A stretch of 32,914 nucleotides of DNA from Candidatus Methanoperedens nitratireducens (lineage in GTDB: Archaea > Halobacteriota > Methanosarcinia > Methanosarcinales > Methanoperedenaceae), in assembly GCF_900196725.1 (NCBI RefSeq), contig NZ_FZMP01000223.1, positions 1 through 32,914 on the forward strand, written 5' to 3'. The notes beneath the pieces were generated by a model. It made no database searches, had not been told where the DNA came from, and saw only the letters and a program-made list of their open reading frames with translations. The stretch's first letter is position 1. Every line of letters starts with the position of its first letter. A program made the translations under genes and the position numbers. Below, one piece after another: positions 1-29,500 of this stretch.

Positions 1-32
1 GGGGGTGACTTGTGGCGCAAACGTAAAAATAT

Positions 33-70
33 GGGATATACTGCTGTATAATGGCAAAAGCAGTTATCCC
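33..70 (-). terminator. Intrinsic-type terminator after the RiPP precursor gene
   Basis: An imperfect inverted repeat lies at 33-45 and 59-70 (GGGATATACTGCT and AGCAGTTATCCC, 12 pairs with one bulged base, 13-nt loop). Read on the minus strand it begins 21 nt after the precursor stop and is followed directly by a T-rich tract (ATATTTTTACG). Hairpin plus U-tract is a plausible transcript end, so the operon probably holds only the maturase and the precursor. Confidence 0.6.
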
Positions 71-91
71 AATTGTGCTCCATTATTCTTA

Positions 92-268
92 CTATTCAAT
101 TGCCTTTGTTCCACAGCCCTTAACAGTATTGACTGTACACGTGCCAGAATTAATCGGACAATTGTTGCCTGGTTGCGGCTCCGGCTTTGGCTTTGGCTTT
201 GCCATTAAAATCTCTTCTGCACTCCCCTTTTCAATAACCTCTAATACAAGCCTTTCTCCAACTTCCAT
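92..268 (-). CDS. Cys-rich RiPP precursor peptide, radical SAM substrate (58 aa)
   Basis: This short gene encodes 58 residues. Residues 1-22 are a charged helical leader (MEVGERLVLEVIEKG, then SAEEILM). Residues 23-34 are a Lys-Pro/Glu-Pro linker (AKPKPKPEPQPG). The C-terminal core contains Cys37, Cys44 and Cys52 in CPINSGTC and TVNTVKGCG, where CPIN and the CTVN starting at Cys44 look like a repeated Cys-X-Ile/Val-Asn unit. A near-perfect Shine-Dalgarno (GGAGGTGAT, 273-281) sits 4 nt before the ATG, much stronger than the maturase site, which suits excess substrate. It lies 63 nt downstream of a radical SAM/SPASM maturase on the same strand, between a stem-loop and a terminator. Established: SPASM maturases often install thioethers on Cys residues of leader-bearing peptides encoded next door. 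Inference: this is such a substrate, of sactipeptide or ranthipeptide type. The crosslink chemistry, leader cleavage site and activity cannot be read from sequence. Confidence 0.82.
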   Translation of the reverse strand: MEVGERLVLEVIEKGSAEEILMAKPKPKPEPQPGNNCPINSGTCTVNTVKGCGTKAIE

Positions 269-293
269 TTATATCACCTCCTTTTCGATTATC

Positions 294-323
294 ATTGGAA
301 GATCGTCTCTACTATCTTCCAAT
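294..323 (-). promoter_or_regulatory. Intercistronic stem-loop between maturase and precursor
   Basis: A perfect 10-bp inverted repeat (ATTGGAAGAT at 294-303, ATCTTCCAAT at 314-323) with a 10-nt loop fills much of the 63-nt gap between the maturase stop and the precursor start. It has no following T-run, so it is more likely an RNA processing or stabilising hairpin, or a leaky attenuator, than a terminator. Such an element would allow unequal amounts of maturase and precursor message. Confidence 0.55.
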
Positions 324-331
324 AACAGTCA

Positions 332-1771
332 TTAAGCCATAGCCGCCGGGATTAGCCTTTCTTCTACTAAACTTCTGACGAACAAGTCTAACGATTTCTT
401 TTCTTCTATACAGCTTCGTCCTCCCTCCATTCTAGCTTTGCGGCATCCTCCGCAGCAAATAGGCAACAATTGACAAATCACACATTCAGCATCGTTAAAT
501 GGATTCACTGTGTACCATCTTGTGATTTTGCCAATAGTATTGGATCGTGTGACATTCCTTCCTTCCAATAAGTATCCGATAGACTCAGAATTTTCATACG
601 TGTGAGTACATAAAAACACGTTGCCATCAGGACCGATCGCGTAATGGTCTAAAAAATCAACCTCGCAGTATCCGACATTATAATTATATGAGTTATAAAT
701 ATGCCAACCAAGAGCCTTTGCGGCTACTTCCAGTTTAGTTAGACCTTGGAAGGACTCAGTCCCGGTCCCTTGTCGGCGAGCAGAGAATTCACGATAACCG
801 CTCGCTTTGTTCGCCCAGATCCAGCGAAAGAAAACGGAAGCACGTGCCTTAACGATAGGCGGAAATCTTTCTAATAGTCTCTCAATCCCATTATAATTGT
901 CGTCGCCACAATTGATTCGTAGCAGAAGATTGCAATCAGAGACACTTTCACAGAGTGTGACTATGTTTTGAAAAACGCGATCAAAGCTTCCCTCACCATT
1001 TCTTTTCCTTTTCAAAGCATCATGATCCGCTTTATCGCCGTCCATAGTCACTTGAACCTGTTTAATGCTTAATGAGGGTATGGCTTCTATGAACTTCTGA
1101 TCTAGAAAATAACCATTAGTCGTTAAAGAAGCTCCATAATTTGCACCGATACTGTTGCAGAACTCCTGCAATCGTTTTGTTAAGCGAAAGATGACTTTCT
1201 TTGCAAGTAGTGGTTCGCCTCCAAACCATGCAATATGAACATATCTCTTATTTTTGAAACTCTTTTCAATCCAATTAATCAATGCATCCTCAACCTCTGA
1301 TTTCATAAAAATAGGTTTCTTGAATTCGAAGCAGTAAGGACATGCTAAATTACACCACAAAGTAGGCAGCACTATCAAACTCAGAGAATTGTTCGCGTAC
1401 AGACTTCGAAAATAATGGAACTTTATTAAACTTAATTCATCAATGCTTTTATCAATTACAAAATGAACCTCTTTGAGAGCCTCCAGCCATTGAGGCGGCA
1501 ACCTGAGAGGATTAGAATTTACCTCCCCTAAGCCTTCTGATTTAGAGGATAGTCCACGAAGAAACTGATCTACAAATGGAAAAGCATCGGCTGGAATCCG
1601 AAGGATTGACCTATATAGGAAATTGTAGCCAAAGAAATTAGTATCATTATACCTAATGAAATAGTTGTAACTTGAGGTCTTTAAATTATTCGTGGTACTT
1701 GCTGCCTCGCTTTCCTGCTTCGCCCTCATTTCACTATTTAACTCAACGTTTTGAAGACTGACTAATCCCAT
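332..1771 (-). CDS. Radical SAM/SPASM peptide maturase
   Basis: The 479-residue protein has the radical SAM cluster motif CNLACPYC (Cys140, Cys144, Cys147), the GGEP motif (184-187), a TMDGDKADHD segment near 242-251 and a complete seven-Cys SPASM pattern: Cys369, Cys388 in GNVFLC, then Cys430, 433, 439 and 443 (CX2CX5CX3C) and Cys454. Residues about 35-125 precede the barrel and resemble the leader-binding N-terminal region of peptide maturases; this is weak by eye. Family knowledge: such enzymes bind one SAM-cleaving and two auxiliary Fe-S clusters and modify short peptides, often forming Cys thioethers. The adjacent 58-residue Cys-containing peptide is the evident substrate. The start at 1771 has only a weak GGAG upstream; a TATA-like ATATATATAT (1811-1820) lies about 40 nt away. 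Met15 is an alternative start. Specific subfamily not recognised. Confidence 0.92.
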   Translation of the reverse strand: MGLVSLQNVELNSEMRAKQESEAASTTNNLKTSSYNYFIRYNDTNFFGYNFLYRSILRIPADAFPFVDQFLRGLSSKSEGLGEVNSNPLRLPPQWLEALKEVHFVIDKSIDELSLIKFHYFRSLYANNSLSLIVLPTLWCNLACPYCFEFKKPIFMKSEVEDALINWIEKSFKNKRYVHIAWFGGEPLLAKKVIFRLTKRLQEFCNSIGANYGASLTTNGYFLDQKFIEAIPSLSIKQVQVTMDGDKADHDALKRKRNGEGSFDRVFQNIVTLCESVSDCNLLLRINCGDDNYNGIERLLERFPPIVKARASVFFRWIWANKASGYREFSARRQGTGTESFQGLTKLEVAAKALGWHIYNSYNYNVGYCEVDFLDHYAIGPDGNVFLCTHTYENSESIGYLLEGRNVTRSNTIGKITRWYTVNPFNDAECVICQLLPICCGGCRKARMEGGRSCIEEKKSLDLFVRSLVEERLIPAAMA

Positions 1772-1810
1772 AGTAATTATCCCTACTCCAAAATAGAATG
1801 AGCGCTTTGG

Positions 1811-1820
1811 ATATATATAT
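1811..1820 (-). promoter_or_regulatory. TATA box of the RiPP operon
   Basis: ATATATATAT flanked by A/T-rich sequence lies 40-49 nt upstream of the maturase ATG on the minus strand, a spacing that leaves a short leader. The CCGTNACGG boxes at 1846 and 1873 lie just upstream of it, so they could act as an operator for this promoter. Confidence 0.5.
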
Positions 1821-1841
1821 TTTTGCTTTCTTACTTAGTGT

Positions 1842-1881
1842 AATCCCGTGACGGGATTGGCTCCAGCAAATACCGTAACGG
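1842..1881. repeat. CCGTNACGG box array 1 (two boxes, 27-bp pitch)
   Basis: AATCCCGT-G-ACGGGATT (1842-1858) is a perfect 17-bp palindrome around one central base. Its core CCGTGACGG starts at 1846. A second core, CCGTAACGG, starts at 1873, exactly 27 bp on. The array lies between the divergent maturase and xerA genes. The same 9-bp core on the same pitch recurs downstream of xerA. Confidence 0.75.
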
Positions 1882-2034
1882 AGATGAGCTTTATTATTTT
1901 TATTCAAACCTCTTATTTTAATTTATAGCGAATCTTCTATACCAGACCCTACATTTAATACCCAGGTAAAAGAGCGAGGATAATTCCTGAATAGAAACTA
2001 TTCTTGTTTCATTCAAAGGAAGACGCCCTAAGAA

Positions 2035-2062
2035 ATGTCATATAAGGTAGATTATACGACAT
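2035..2062 (+). other. Candidate archaeal dif recombination site
   Basis: The 28-bp site has an 11-bp left arm ATGTCATATAA, a 6-bp spacer GGTAGA and an 11-bp right arm TTATACGACAT. The arms are inverted repeats with one mismatch and the symmetry extends one base further on each side. Arm-6-arm geometry with ATAA ending the left arm and TTAT starting the right arm is the general form of Xer/dif sites, and the TATAA-6-TTATA core matches archaeal dif sites as I remember them. It lies 25 bp before the xerA start and overlaps its TATA region, so it could instead be an autoregulatory operator. Confidence 0.6.
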
Positions 2063-2071
2063 TTTTATATA
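2062..2071 (+). promoter_or_regulatory. TATA box of xerA
   Basis: TTTTTATATATA, immediately overlapping the dif-like palindrome, lies about 20-27 nt before the xerA ATG. That is the distance from an archaeal TATA box to the transcript start, so the message is probably leaderless or has a very short leader. Confidence 0.5.
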
Positions 2072-2087
2072 TACAGAAGGACAATTA

Positions 2088-2933
2088 ATGACTGGTATGC
2101 AAAACGATGCGCCGCTGACATTAAAAAAGCTCGAGACTGAAATGAAGCTGAGGGGTTTCTCAAAACAGACCTCCAAAATGTACCTTTTCTATAATACCAA
2201 ATTCCTTGAGTATATTAAAAAGCCTCCGGAGGCTGTTGATGAAGATGATATGAAGGAATACCTGGCTCACAAGATGTCAGATCATTCTTTGTCCAATGCT
2301 TCGATCTCGCTAATAAAAGCCTCGCTGAAATTCTTCTATGCCGAAATACTTGGTAAGAACCTGACACTTATTAAAACCCCGAAAGCCTCAAAAAAATTAC
2401 CCGTCGTACTGACCCGGCAGGAGATAAGAGATCTGCTTGATAATACGGAGAATTCAAAGCACAGGCTTTTGATCGAGCTTCTTTACTCCACAGGCTTGCG
2501 GCTTTCCGAATGTGTAAACTTGAAATACTCAGACCTCGACTTAAACGATGGCATAGGCTGGGTGCGTATGGGGAAGGGCGCGAAGGACAGGATTTTCATC
2601 ATCTCCGGGATGTTCAAAAAAGACCTGCTGGAGTATAAAGATAAAAGCGGCGCCGACGGGAAAGGATACATATTCTCGATGAACGGCAAAAAAATGTCGC
2701 CGCGCGGAATCCAGCATGCGATCAAGAAAGCAGCAAAGCGCGCGGGCATCGAAAAAGACGTGCATGTGCACACGCTGCGCCATTCGTTCGCCACGCACCT
2801 GCTTGAAGATGGCGTGGATATCAGGAAAATACAGACTCTTCTGGGACATGCGAATCTGCAGACGACGCAGATATACACGCAGGTTTCGAGCGAGGAAATT
2901 AAGAAGATTAAAAGCCCTCTGGATATGCTGTAG
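2088..2933 (+). CDS. xerA: XerA-type tyrosine recombinase
   Basis: The 281-residue protein has an N-terminal SAM-like DNA-binding domain (about 10-95) and a C-terminal catalytic domain with the full active-site set: Arg138 (TGLRLSE), Lys166 (GKGAKDR), His228 and Arg231 (HTLRHSFATHLL), His254 (LGHANLQTT) and nucleophile Tyr263 (IYTQV). The length matches archaeal XerA, the recombinase that resolves chromosome dimers at dif. It appears intact. A dif-like 28-bp palindrome lies 25 bp upstream, which supports a resident Xer system over a phage integrase; no tRNA or attachment duplication is visible nearby. CCGTNACGG box arrays lie on both sides. A TATA box about 20 nt upstream suggests a leaderless message, although AAGGA (2078-2082) could serve as a weak ribosome binding site. 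Confidence 0.9.
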   Translation: MTGMQNDAPLTLKKLETEMKLRGFSKQTSKMYLFYNTKFLEYIKKPPEAVDEDDMKEYLAHKMSDHSLSNASISLIKASLKFFYAEILGKNLTLIKTPKASKKLPVVLTRQEIRDLLDNTENSKHRLLIELLYSTGLRLSECVNLKYSDLDLNDGIGWVRMGKGAKDRIFIISGMFKKDLLEYKDKSGADGKGYIFSMNGKKMSPRGIQHAIKKAAKRAGIEKDVHVHTLRHSFATHLLEDGVDIRKIQTLLGHANLQTTQIYTQVSSEEIKKIKSPLDML

Positions 2934-2987
2934 ATTTTTGAAAAATCTTATAACACCCGATTGCATAAATGAATATTTAAAGATGTT

Positions 2988-3052
2988 TTCCGTCACGGAA
3001 TTTTGCTGCAAACTTCCCGTAACGGTATTATAACAGTAAAATACCGTAACGG
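2988..3052. repeat. CCGTNACGG box array 2 (three boxes, 27-bp pitch)
   Basis: TTCCGT-C-ACGGAA (2988-3000) is a perfect palindrome. Cores begin at 2990 (CCGTCACGG), 3017 (CCGTAACGG) and 3044 (CCGTAACGG), each exactly 27 bp apart. The 18-bp spacers are not conserved, so the pitch looks selected and not just inherited from a simple tandem duplication. The array starts about 55 bp after the xerA stop. Confidence 0.75.
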
Positions 3053-3106
3053 AATGAACCTTACACAAGTTAGTTTCTTTTCCTGTCACCTCAATGATCA
3101 GGAGGT

Positions 3107-3214
3107 AGTGGGCAGAGGAGGGAAGTATGGTGGAAATGGAAAAAAGTGTTTTTCTGCCCACTATAGTTCGTATATAAACGAACATTGTATTTAAAGTTTA
3201 CGCCAGGTGTAAAG
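3107..3214 (+). repeat. Promoter-like direct repeat, copy 1
   Basis: This 108-bp segment is roughly 80 percent identical to 3341-3450. It starts with AGTGGGCAGA (3107-3116) and has the exact inverse TCTGCCCACT at 3153-3162, with 36 nt between. A TATA-like TATATAAA (3171-3178) and a second imperfect palindrome TTTACGCC-A-GGTGTAAA (3197-3213) follow. The layout resembles an operator plus promoter. It would start transcripts near 3200, just before the structured segment at 3241-3301. Confidence 0.65.
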
Positions 3215-3240
3215 ACAGTCTGACCAAGCGCTTGTCTGTA

Positions 3241-3301
3241 CTCGTCTATAATTCAGGAAAGTGTAAGCAGGGGCTGGTTTCCAGCATCCTGAAAAGACGA
3301 G
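3241..3301 (+). ncRNA. Candidate structured RNA
   Basis: Three nested stems can form: CTCGTCT/AGACGAG (3241-3247 with 3295-3301), TTCAGGA/TCCTGAA (3252-3258 with 3287-3293) and GCTGG/CCAGC (3273-3277 with 3281-3285, TTT loop). Nineteen perfect pairs in 61 nt with no convincing ORF suggests a folded RNA, possibly transcribed from the TATA at 3171-3178. The fold is symmetric, so the opposite strand cannot be excluded. No known RNA family is recognised. Confidence 0.4.
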
Positions 3302-3340
3302 ATATCAGCGGGAAGTATCGCATTCCCAGGATAAAATCTT

Positions 3341-3450
3341 AGTGGGCAGAGGTGGATTATGGTGGTGGTATGAAAAAAAAGTGTTCTTCTGCCCACTGTA
3401 GTTCGCATATATACTAACGAATGTATTTAAAGTTTACGCCTGGTGTAAAG
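3341..3450 (+). repeat. Promoter-like direct repeat, copy 2
   Basis: This is the second copy of the element at 3107-3214. AGTGGGCAGA (3341-3350) and TCTGCCCACT (3388-3397) form a perfect 10-bp inverted repeat with a 37-nt gap. CATATATACT (3406-3415) is the TATA-like element and TTTACGCC-T-GGTGTAAA closes the unit. It sits upstream of the 83-residue zinc-ribbon-like gene and box array 3. Confidence 0.65.
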
Positions 3451-3482
3451 CCAAGCGGTTCCAATGCCTGCTTATGTATTTT

Positions 3483-3531
3483 CCGTGACGCAATATATAA
3501 ATATTCCCGTAACGCAATAAGATACCGTATG
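3483..3531. repeat. CCGTNACG box array 3, degenerate, at a promoter
   Basis: CCGTGACGC (3483-3491), CCGTAACGC (3507-3515) and a partial ACCGTATGAC (3524-3533) repeat the flanking pattern of array 2, but at shorter spacings of 24 and 18 bp. A TATA element ATATATAAAT (3493-3502) lies between the first two boxes and the third touches the ATG of the next gene. This suggests an operator for that promoter. Confidence 0.55.
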
Positions 3532-3780
3532 ACCACCAGAAAATATCTCCGCTGGAAAAAATGCCTTATATGCAACGATTTTGTGAAATTGATGTTCCCT
3601 GAGGATGCGGAAAACATGCTCCTCATTTACGAGCCCCAGGAAGGCATGAGCAACGAGTCCAAGAACTGGAAGAAAAAACAGCTCGGATACGTGCACAGAA
3701 ACTGCCTTAAAAAAGCAAACTCAATGCTAAAGATCAAATCTATCGAGTCCGATGACAGCGGCGTTGCAGAGGTAGTATAG
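3529..3780 (+). CDS. Small zinc-ribbon-like protein (83 aa)
   Basis: The frame is open further upstream (to 3421), but that part covers promoter repeats. ATG 3529 is preferred: it follows a TATA box by about 27 nt and gives a compact 83-residue protein. CLIC (Cys12, Cys15) and HRNC (His56, Cys59) make a CX2C...HX2C set typical of a treble-clef or zinc-ribbon metal site. The N-terminus is basic (TTRKYLRWKK), so nucleic-acid binding is plausible. The TAG stop overlaps the GTG start of the UbiD gene, implying co-translation. I do not recognise a named family. The CCGTNACG boxes at its promoter suggest specific regulation. Confidence 0.7.
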   Translation: MTTRKYLRWKKCLICNDFVKLMFPEDAENMLLIYEPQEGMSNESKNWKKKQLGYVHRNCLKKANSMLKIKSIESDDSGVAEVV

Positions 3781-5225
3781 TGGCTTACAAAGACTTGCGC
3801 GAGTTCATAGAAGTTCTTGAAAAAAAACACCTTCTGCTGCGCATAAAAAACGAAGTAAGCGCCGAGCTTGAGATTACAGAGATAATTGACAGGGTTGTAA
3901 AAAGCAACGGTCCTGCGCTGTTATTCGAGAACGTTAAAGGTTATAAAATACCGGTATTTGCCAATGCTTTCGGCACAATGGAGCGTATGTTCCTTGCGCT
4001 GGGTGTGGATAAACTCGATGAGATCGGCGAGCGGATACAGAAGCTCCTGGAATTCGAAGCGCCGTCAGGCATCTGGGAAGGCATAAAAATGCTGCCGCAG
4101 GCAGCAGAACTTACATCCTTTGCTCCCAGATATGTAAAATCCGGTCCTTGTAAGGAGGTTATCCTTAAAGATGGCTTTTCACTTGATGACTTCCCGGTAC
4201 TGAAATGCTGGCCGCAGGATGGCGGCAGGTTCATCACTCTCCCTCTTGTATTCACTAAAAACCCAAAAACCGGGAAGCAGAACGTGGGTATGTACAGGAT
4301 GCAGGTTTACGACGGCAAGACGACAGGAATGCACTGGCACATCCATAAACACGGCGCGAGGGATTATGCCGATGCAAGCGGAAAGAGCGATAGGATCGAG
4401 GTCGCTGTCGCTATCGGCGCCGACCCGGCTGTAGTGTATTCAGCCACCGCGCCGCTGCCAGATAATATCGACGAGATGATGTTCGCCGGGTTCCTTCGCA
4501 AAAAGAACGTGGAGCTTGTCAAATGCGAAACAGTCGACATGTTTGTGCCTGCTCATGCCGAGATAATACTCGAAGGATGCGTTGATTCAAAAGAGCGGCG
4601 TATCGAGGGACCTTTCGGGGACCATACAGGGTATTATTCGCTTGCAGATGAGTTTCCTGTATTCCATATAACCTGCATCACCCACCGGAAGAACCCGGTG
4701 TACCATGCAACTGTTGTGGGAATTCCGCCAATGGAAGATGCGTATCTCGGTAAAGCCACTGAGAGGATATTCCTGCCTCTCATGAAAACCCAGCTTCCTG
4801 AGATCGTAGATATCAACCTGCCTGTTGAAGCTGTTTTCCATAATCTCTGCATTGTATCCATAAAAAAGCGCTATCCAGGGCATGCTAAGAAAGTAATGTT
4901 CGCCCTCTGGGGCATGGGGCAGATGATGTTCGCAAAGACGATAATCGTACTTGACGATGATGTGAACGTTCAGGATATGAGGGAAGTGCTCTGGGCAACC
5001 ACCACGCGCATGGACCCTGCCAGGGATGTAATAATTATCGACAGGGCGCCGACAGATACGCTTGACCACGCTTCGTTCTTACCCAATCTCGGCTCCAAAA
5101 TGGGGATTGACGCCACTCGAAAAGGAAAAGACGAGGGCTTCAACCGTGAATGGCCTGATGCCTTAAAGATGGATGAAGCAGTAAAGGCACGGGTAGATAT
5201 GATATGGAAGGAGCTTGGATTGTAA
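3780..5225 (+). CDS. UbiD-family prenyl-FMN decarboxylase
   Basis: The 481-residue protein begins at a GTG overlapping the preceding stop, with GAGG a few bases upstream. UbiD hallmarks include GPALLFENVKG (about 44-54), GMYRMQVYDGKTTGMHWHIHKHGARD in the middle (metal and prenyl-FMN contacts) and EGPFGDHTGYYS with the Glu-rich active-site region before it (AEIILEG). It is full length for the family, so a reversible decarboxylase using prenylated FMN is expected. Two roles fit an archaeon: decarboxylation of trans-anhydromevalonate 5-phosphate in the archaeal mevalonate pathway, or the MqnL-type step of futalosine menaquinone synthesis. The UbiA-like prenyltransferase 0.8 kb away favours the second, but not decisively. 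It converges with the GPN GTPase gene 6 bp downstream. Confidence 0.9.
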   Translation: MAYKDLREFIEVLEKKHLLLRIKNEVSAELEITEIIDRVVKSNGPALLFENVKGYKIPVFANAFGTMERMFLALGVDKLDEIGERIQKLLEFEAPSGIWEGIKMLPQAAELTSFAPRYVKSGPCKEVILKDGFSLDDFPVLKCWPQDGGRFITLPLVFTKNPKTGKQNVGMYRMQVYDGKTTGMHWHIHKHGARDYADASGKSDRIEVAVAIGADPAVVYSATAPLPDNIDEMMFAGFLRKKNVELVKCETVDMFVPAHAEIILEGCVDSKERRIEGPFGDHTGYYSLADEFPVFHITCITHRKNPVYHATVVGIPPMEDAYLGKATERIFLPLMKTQLPEIVDINLPVEAVFHNLCIVSIKKRYPGHAKKVMFALWGMGQMMFAKTIIVLDDDVNVQDMREVLWATTTRMDPARDVIIIDRAPTDTLDHASFLPNLGSKMGIDATRKGKDEGFNREWPDALKMDEAVKARVDMIWKELGL

Positions 5226-12111: not shown

Positions 12112-12831
12112 TATCGGCAAAAAGCTTGGTATTCAAATAACATAGCCTGCATATACGGAACTTTTGATGCCAGCATATTTTCAGCAAAGAGGGATTCAAA
12201 AGCCTTCGATATCTGCTCTAACTGTACCCTTCTGGTGCGCCCTATTTTTGCAGAGATAGCGCAGGGGCAGATGCCAAGCGCTAAACCTGAAGAACTTGCC
12301 GTTGCAATCATAGAGTGCGTTGACGCCGGTGCACGCGTGGTTAACCTAAGCGTAGCCCTTGCACAGCCATCATCAAGAGGCGAGCGTGAATTGGAAGAAG
12401 CCTTGAATTACGCTGCAAGGAGCGGCGTTATCATTGTTGCGGCTTCAGGTAACCAGGGAGCCATCGGAAGTTCTCCCATCACCCGTCACCCGTGGGTAAT
12501 TCCTGTTGTTGCCTGTGATCTCCAAGGAAGACCTATTAGTCTCTCTAATCTGGGAAGCTCTATAGGCAGGCAGGGTCTGTGCGCGCCAGGTGATGCAATC
12601 ACAAGTCTCGGAGCCGAGGGGAAACCGCTCACTCTGGGAGGAACGAGTATTGCAGCACCTTTTGTAACAGGTGCAATCGCGCTGTTATGGTCAGTATTTC
12701 CATCGGCGACAGCAGTTGAGATAAAACTCGCTGTAACTCAAGCCAGCACACCGAGGCGGATCACTATTGTCCCCCCATTATTGGATGCATGGTCGGCGTA
12801 CCAGGTGATGGTGAAGATACATCCTGAATAA
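12112..12831 (+). pseudogene. Subtilisin-like (S8) peptidase remnant
   Basis: The open frame begins without a start codon and covers only the C-terminal two thirds of an S8 domain. Present are the oxyanion-loop AASGNQG and the nucleophile segment GGTSIAAPFVTG. The catalytic Asp region is absent. Where the family has His-Gly-Thr, the sequence reads IACIYGTFDASIFSAKR, with Tyr in place of His. CSNCTLLVRPIF follows. A GTG at 12235 or an ATG could start a shorter product, but it would lack two triad residues. This is best read as a decayed gene. Its position after the 991-aa and frameshifted genes suggests that a protease once belonged to the cassette. Confidence 0.75.
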
Positions 12832-28433: not shown

Positions 28434-29390
28434 TTACACCGGAACCTGAGGTCTCATTGAAGGCGCCTTCTCAAGTACAGTCTTTAACCTCACTCTTTCG
28501 CGTCCCTTGTAAACTTCCATGACAATACTATCGCCCGCTTCATGTTTATTGATCACTTTAATGAGGTCTCTTACGTTGTTGATGTCGGTATCATCTATGC
28601 CCACCAGGATGTCTCCTGCCTCGACCCCCGACCTCTCTGCTTCGCTGCCTGGCACAACGTTGGTTATCGCCACGCCTTTATCAACGGGCAGGTTATAATA
28701 TGCCACCAGCTTGGGATTGACATCCACGGCATTGATGGCTATCCACGGTCTTACGACCTCGCCGTGCTCGATTAATTGCTTTGCTATCCACATAGCCGGT
28801 TGTATCGGTATCGCGAACCCGATGCCCTGGGCAAATGGTATGATGGCGCTGTTGATACCCATCACTACGCCTTTGCTGTTTATCAATGGACCGCCGCTGT
28901 TCCCCGGATTGATCGCTGCATCTGTTTGTATCAGTCCCTCCATGAAAGTTACCTCAGTCTGTATGGAGCGGTTCAGTGCGCTTATGACCCCTGCGGTAAC
29001 GGTCGGACCGCCAACAAGACCTAACGGGCTGCCTATCGCAATTGCCATCTGACCGATCTTCAGGTTATTCCCCTCTGCCATCTCAGGGACAGGCAGGTCA
29101 CTGGCGTCTATCTGTATCACAGCCAGGTCCATGATAGTATCAAGTCCCCTGACCGTGCCCTCGAATGACCTGCCATCTTCCAGTGTCACTGTGATCTTCC
29201 GGGAGCCCATTATCACATGGGCATTGGTGAGTATGCCGCCATCACCATCGATCACGAAGCCTGAGCCCACGCCAGGAACCGGATGGACTCGCAGGTACGC
29301 ATCTCTTATAAGCTTTACTTCACTTATGTTCACTACACTTGGTATTACTCTCTCTACTGCTGATGTTACTGTTTCATCAAAATCGCTCAT
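28434..29390 (-). CDS. HtrA/DegP-like serine protease with one PDZ domain
   Basis: About 318 residues from ATG 29390 (or 323 from 29405). The trypsin-like S1C triad is complete: His in LTNAHV, Asp in DLAVIQID and Ser in NPGNSGGPL (His63, Asp93 and Ser170 in the longer form). One PDZ domain follows (about 225-312, GVAITNVVPGSEAERSGVEA, then GDILVGIDDTDI). No signal peptide or membrane anchor is present, so unlike bacterial DegP it is probably cytoplasmic and acts in protein quality control. It is divergent from guaAb. Confidence 0.92.
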   Translation of the reverse strand: MSDFDETVTSAVERVIPSVVNISEVKLIRDAYLRVHPVPGVGSGFVIDGDGGILTNAHVIMGSRKITVTLEDGRSFEGTVRGLDTIMDLAVIQIDASDLPVPEMAEGNNLKIGQMAIAIGSPLGLVGGPTVTAGVISALNRSIQTEVTFMEGLIQTDAAINPGNSGGPLINSKGVVMGINSAIIPFAQGIGFAIPIQPAMWIAKQLIEHGEVVRPWIAINAVDVNPKLVAYYNLPVDKGVAITNVVPGSEAERSGVEAGDILVGIDDTDINNVRDLIKVINKHEAGDSIVMEVYKGRERVRLKTVLEKAPSMRPQVPV

Positions 29391-29500
29391 ATTAACTGCC
29401 CCCATAACTATGATTGCTTCTAATGATATTTGAAACTATTTGTCTATCCATAAAATCCATGTAAAACCATTTAAAGCAGGAGAAATATTGTAAGAGGCTG

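Follow-up and report, generated by a model that had tools for sequence, protein, structure and literature searches.

A candidate two-gene radical SAM peptide operon, probably thioether-forming, in an ANME-2d archaeon

We describe a radical SAM maturase gene and a 58-codon cysteine peptide gene at one end of a 32,914-nucleotide stretch of Candidatus Methanoperedens nitratireducens DNA (the window), which opens contig 15 of a 3.5-Mb genome in 250 contigs. The pair is best read as an archaeal radical SAM thioether-peptide system resembling those of ranthipeptides or sactipeptides, with the thioethers predicted. In our judgement the two genes probably constitute a RiPP operon, in which the peptide would be thioether-linked by the maturase and which was probably acquired horizontally. 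The archaeal host proposed in a preliminary description of this DNA holds: the McrA of the genome best matches 9QQT and 9QR1, the MCRs from two Ca. Methanoperedens (ANME-2d) enrichments (PMC12413448), and the host is therefore an ANME-2d archaeon. Such organisms are central to methane cycling, and the two-gene unit offers a compact, testable candidate for an archaeal thioether RiPP.

Anatomy of the two-gene unit

The first gene encodes a complete 479-aa radical SAM/SPASM peptide maturase, found in the ORF list and matched by PF04055. The complete radical SAM motif and seven SPASM cysteines previously assigned to it are all present, the latter as C369, C388, C430, C433, C439, C443 and C454; the CxxxCxxC motif and all seven SPASM positions are invariant in an alignment of 18 maturases from archaea and bacteria. 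On the same strand, 63 bases past the maturase stop, begins the ORF for the peptide MEVGERLVLEVIEKGSAEEILMAKPKPKPEPQPG-NNCPINSGTCTVNTVKGCGTKAIE. Its linker reads KPKPKPEPQP, and its core contains the cysteine units CPIN and CTVN, so that the recurring CX(I/V)N unit noted before describes the first two cysteines but not the third. The strong Shine-Dalgarno sequence ascribed to this 58-codon ORF is borne out, as AAGGAGGTGAT occurs once in the 32.9-kb window and shuffled sequences would yield 0.01 copies. The codon-usage score of the ORF (0.07, against −0.12 for an overlapping opposite-strand ORF at 51–335(+)) lends weak support, since spurious ORFs of the same size reach similar values.

Pfam and NCBIfam searches with the peptide gave no family match, in line with the earlier view that its core fits no named class; among the NCBIfam models, neither the Clo7bot precursors nor the TIGR03793 NHLP leader matched. 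The peptide is single-copy, and no credible homolog was found in its own genome, the genus, plasmids or IMG/VR. One match, in genome G007 (E 0.0025), was rejected as an unrelated cysteine protein. The window peptide is an orphan.

Table 1 Features of the maturase–peptide locus and its surroundings (window coordinates)
Feature	Position	Strand	Basis
Contig-end repeat, common to three other contigs; likely insertion-sequence end	1..26		Putative IS identity
Terminator-like hairpin and U tract 3′ of the peptide gene	24..71	-	Fold
Candidate precursor peptide, 58 aa	92..268	-	ORF; single copy in genome; no family
Core GNNCPINSGTCTVNTVKGCGTKAIE with C37, C44 and C52, stop codon included	92..169	-	Sequence; putative boundary
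Leader and Lys-Pro/Glu-Pro linker, residues 1–33	170..268	-	Sequence; putative boundary
Shine-Dalgarno AAGGAGGTGAT of the peptide gene	273..283	-	Sole copy in window
Intercistronic hairpin, maturase stop to peptide ribosome-binding site	287..330	-	Inverted repeat, fold
Radical SAM/SPASM peptide maturase, 479 aa	332..1771	-	ORF; NCBIfam matches under cut-off; PF04055
SPASM domain, seven cluster cysteines C369 to C454	410..667	-	Invariant alignment columns
CNLACPYC radical SAM [4Fe-4S] motif, C140, C144, C147	1331..1354	-	Invariant alignment columns
N-terminal beta3-alpha region, residues about 33–125, RRE-like layout	1397..1675	-	AlphaFold model; putative RRE
TATA-like element of archaeal type, AAAAATATATATATCC, some 45 nt 5′ of maturase start	1809..1824	-	Consensus only
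Boundary of species-specific segment, cutting an array of CCGTNACGG palindromes	1841..1881		Comparison with relatives
XerA-like tyrosine recombinase, outside the RiPP unit	2088..2933	+	PF00589

Two hairpins frame the peptide gene. The intercistronic hairpin folds, with its flanks, at −20.7 kcal/mol (z −4.3), and the downstream hairpin, which leads into UAUUUUUA, at −17.1 kcal/mol (z −3.1); a terminator pattern search missed the second hairpin because its 13-base loop exceeds the pattern limit of 8. Since this terminator-like structure closes the unit, the maturase and peptide genes resemble a complete two-gene operon, and a co-operonic cysteine peptide is supported. A single transcript, maturase then peptide, is likely from this layout, and the first hairpin may stabilise or insulate its peptide part. 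No protease or exporter adjoins the pair; a subtilase-like ORF (12235–12831) and an HtrA-like ORF (28434–29405) lie in the window too far away for assignment.

Origin and surroundings

Among 19 window genes, the maturase has the least host-like codon usage (0.008, compared with 0.08–0.26 for the others). In four related genomes, homology to the window DNA starts near position 1841 and runs rightwards only, and to the left of this point genes for a 124-aa protein and CDC48-type ATPases, common to the two nearest relatives, take the place of the maturase pair. The repeat at the contig end, which is likely the end of an insertion sequence, is placed at the extreme end of at least one of the three other contigs that carry it. 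From the low codon score, the boundary and this repeat we therefore take the pair to be the product of a species-specific insertion or rearrangement, and it is probably foreign and horizontally acquired.

The low codon score, the species-specific segment and the likely insertion-sequence end also suit a decaying or foreign remnant cassette that was inserted without its source's transporter and protease and whose product is no longer made, but both reading frames are intact and the catalytic motifs complete. We regard such a remnant as unlikely, and it is compatible with a thioether-peptide operon as the ancestral function.

The xerA gene to the right of the boundary was considered as a mobile-element integrase and ruled out in that role, being found in 27 of 31 genomes of the genus; it is a housekeeping gene there. 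In related Methanoperedens, both sides of xerA carry arrays of the 9-bp palindrome CCGTNACGG with an exact spacing of 26–27 bases (window 1846–1881 and 2990–3052; L165 6608–6697; L166 7230–7319; L167 5055–5143), and the insertion boundary interrupts the left array of the window. These arrays look like iterons or Xer/dif-type sites. A repeat of ~110 bases with the inverted pair TAGTGGGCAGA...TCTGCCCACTA (window 3106–3217 and 3339–3459; also in L165, L166 and L168) recurs several times on the 3′ side of xerA in the relatives. An Rfam search of window positions 1–4000, which include this repeat, matched nothing.

Peptides beside homologous maturases

Across several hundred genomes from the archaeal phylum of the host, relatives of the maturase are 25–33% identical over the matched part, and within the genus homologs occur elsewhere only in two genomes (G024 and G008), both very different. 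In G024, the closest same-genus relative and best archaeal match, the maturase gene is followed after 56 bases by a gene for a 63-aa cysteine peptide that ends in CVDHLCGCGYDRPGSQN and has an 8-nt Shine-Dalgarno match, which repeats the gene order of the window with a similar gap. Homology between its leader and that of the window peptide was rejected: the score of 39 was not significant, and unrelated ORFs ranked as high. In G008, a 42-aa peptide with the C terminus CTCTGNCPKY is encoded upstream of the maturase.

The association extends further. In a Methanosarcina-like genus, a precursor with an NHLP leader and the core GCxGCDGVGGCGFCEC lies just upstream of the homologous maturase in all seven loci counted (L027, L028, L030, L034, L048, L049 and L050); the first cysteine is lost in one copy, and the L028 peptide matches the TIGR03793 leader at 67.8 bits. 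Three of these precursors share the same 23-residue leader deletion. The Clo7bot, Rhizosphaericola mali plasmid and several IMG/VR homologs are each accompanied by one to eight cysteine peptides. An automated count placed such peptides beside 6 of 22 maturases and 8 of the 92 genes that served as controls (p 0.03), a mild enrichment obtained with two true cases wrongly placed among these controls. In one archaeal genome, about seven tandem SPASM maturase ORFs stand behind one 58-aa cysteine-rich ORF ending WCWESGSGCC (L036 4751–14369), and an in-frame TAG lies within a maturase reading frame of genome G489 (L045/L048), possibly pyrrolysine or a broken gene.

For the window itself, the enzyme has a candidate substrate with a strong Shine-Dalgarno beside it but without found homologs, and no orthologous maturase–peptide pair was found. 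The preliminary description had staked the pairing on conservation of the 58-aa ORF beside homologous maturases. Cysteine-rich ORFs do accompany many of these enzymes, but this peptide was not found conserved among them, and the pairing therefore rests on architecture. Could the short ORF be a chance or unrelated small gene, its enzyme's true precursor lying elsewhere or lost at the contig break? This reading, which we hold to be less likely still than a remnant, agrees with the absence of found homologs of the ORF in its genome, the genus, plasmids and IMG/VR, with a contig that ends 91 bases beyond the peptide stop and with a codon score that spurious ORFs attain. Against it stand the exceptional Shine-Dalgarno, a cysteine-rich core with small residues, and a unit that ends in a hairpin and whose layout recurs in G024.

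In the maturase tree, the window enzyme groups with those of G024, R. mali, IMG/VR locus L073 and G008 at a support of 96/93 (loci L037, L041, L073 and L038), and with G024 and R. mali at 90/81, on long branches (1.3–2.2). By eye, CPINSGTC resembles the C-[TI]-N-S-x-x-C-type units common to the cores of R. mali, L073 and L077. An NSG-core regular expression, drawn partly from those same peptides, is commoner near maturases (12 of 112) than elsewhere (3 of 389). A core HMM built without the window peptide scores it at 5.2 bits (E 6.9), a value equalled by 89 of 1,999 shuffles with fixed cysteines (p about 0.045). Because this HMM result is marginal, we do not claim homology to the R. mali and IMG/VR NSG cores; the window core resembles bacterial NSG-type cores only suggestively, and we take this as a lead. 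The precursors with CTN(S/T)xDCTxTTN-type cores in L073 (4054–4888), L077 (2803–4304) and L041 (757–2279) had no credible NCBIfam match, and these bacterial and IMG/VR peptides appear to form an undescribed group.

Maturase chemistry and relation to known systems

The maturase passes the general SPASM model TIGR04085 (44.9 bits, cut-off 27). Its top NCBIfam model is Clo7bot TIGR04334 (210 bits, cut-off 600), followed by TIGR04463 (193.5, cut-off 525), CefB (167.5, cut-off 600) and the geopeptide maturase model (146.4, cut-off 400), each reached to less than half of its cut-off. SCIFF/CteB TIGR03974 gives 73.2 bits (cut-off 425). Models of cyclophane makers such as YhhB, AmcB and GrrM also score, though more weakly than the top models. 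The enzyme belongs to a Clo7bot/TIGR04463/CefB/geopeptide-like superfamily, far under every curated cut-off. An AlphaFold model from a 15-sequence alignment (pLDDT 76.6, pTM 0.74) best matches CteB (5why/5wgg) over nearly its full length, with 431–464 aligned columns at ~18% identity, followed by anSME and TigE; a PDB sequence search also places CteB on top. Together, the NCBIfam scores, the invariant cysteines and the CteB fold match support the SPASM peptide-maturase type first assigned. In the model, N-terminal strands (residues 36–40, 45–50 and 55–60) precede helices (64–75, 93–101 and 112–125), a region that may be a leader-binding RRE domain.

In CteB-like logic, the leader docks on the RRE, AdoMet is cleaved, hydrogen is abstracted and a Cys thioether closes with SPASM assistance. 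We think it likely that the window maturase acts on this peptide in the same way. The peptide would be translated downstream of the maturase from its own strong ribosome-binding site, and its first ~33 residues would bind the RRE-like N-terminal part of the enzyme. The radical SAM cluster would cleave AdoMet to a 5′-deoxyadenosyl radical, which would take hydrogen from core acceptors, likely Asn, Ser or Thr, and the SPASM auxiliary clusters would help to link between one and three of the cysteines C37, C44 and C52 to these acceptors as thioethers. Leader removal and export would rely on proteins encoded elsewhere. That the maturase acts on this peptide but installs linkages other than Cys thioethers, such as carbon–carbon or ether bonds, while the cysteines bind metal or form disulfides, is the least likely alternative: the cyclophane makers also score in the superfamily, and the CteB-topped fold also occurs in further SPASM enzymes, anSME and TigE among them, and cannot by itself reveal chemistry, but the highest-scoring models and the top structural match are maturases of thioether or Cys-rich peptides, cysteine is a common feature of the partner peptides, and the residues that cyclophanes usually involve (Trp, Tyr, Phe and His) are missing from the core.

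Ranthipeptide and sactipeptide clusters were already listed when 11,644 archaeal genomes were surveyed with antiSMASH, and the same paper counts only lanthipeptides as validated archaeal RiPP products (PMC12144867). The statement that radical SAM peptides are poorly described in archaea was thus overstated, and on the same grounds the pair with its probable thioether chemistry looks like a known kind of peptide-tailoring system with an orphan core, not a new kind. New here are the intergenic hairpin, the terminator-like hairpin and the insertion boundary near 1841. In the literature searched we found no paper on a Methanoperedens RiPP. It is a doubtful, though bolder, proposition that this is the first RiPP of an anaerobic methanotroph and that the three-cysteine, Asn/Ser/Thr-rich core with its Lys-Pro linker represents a new thioether class, shared by horizontal transfer with bacterial NSG-core peptides.

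Compared with known systems, Clo7bot likewise sets a SPASM maturase beside short Cys-rich peptides, some of which have NSG between cysteines as in the window peptide, but its precursors have MKFIKKPxKKFEEG leaders and many paralogs, whereas the window peptide has another leader and a single copy. CteB, the maturase of SCIFF (thermocellin, a ranthipeptide), is the top structural and PDB sequence match at about 18% structural identity, and SCIFF peptides carry six cysteines where the window peptide has three. The TIGR04463, CefB and geopeptide maturases share superfamily and architecture with the window enzyme; CefA, however, is a long protein with a cysteine at every fifth position of its tail, unlike the 58-aa window peptide. 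The plasmid locus of R. mali (L041) has a maturase that groups with that of the window and cores of the form CTNSGDCT against CPINSGTCT, and it differs in its GG-type leaders, five paralogs and peptidase-domain ABC exporter. The Methanosarcina-like maturase is an archaeal homolog from the same order, 27% identical and likewise adjacent to a Cys-core precursor, which lies upstream with an NHLP leader and the core GCDGVGGCGFCEC, whereas the window peptide lies downstream. These NHLP pairs are even stronger candidates and, as a first target, preferable to the window pair.
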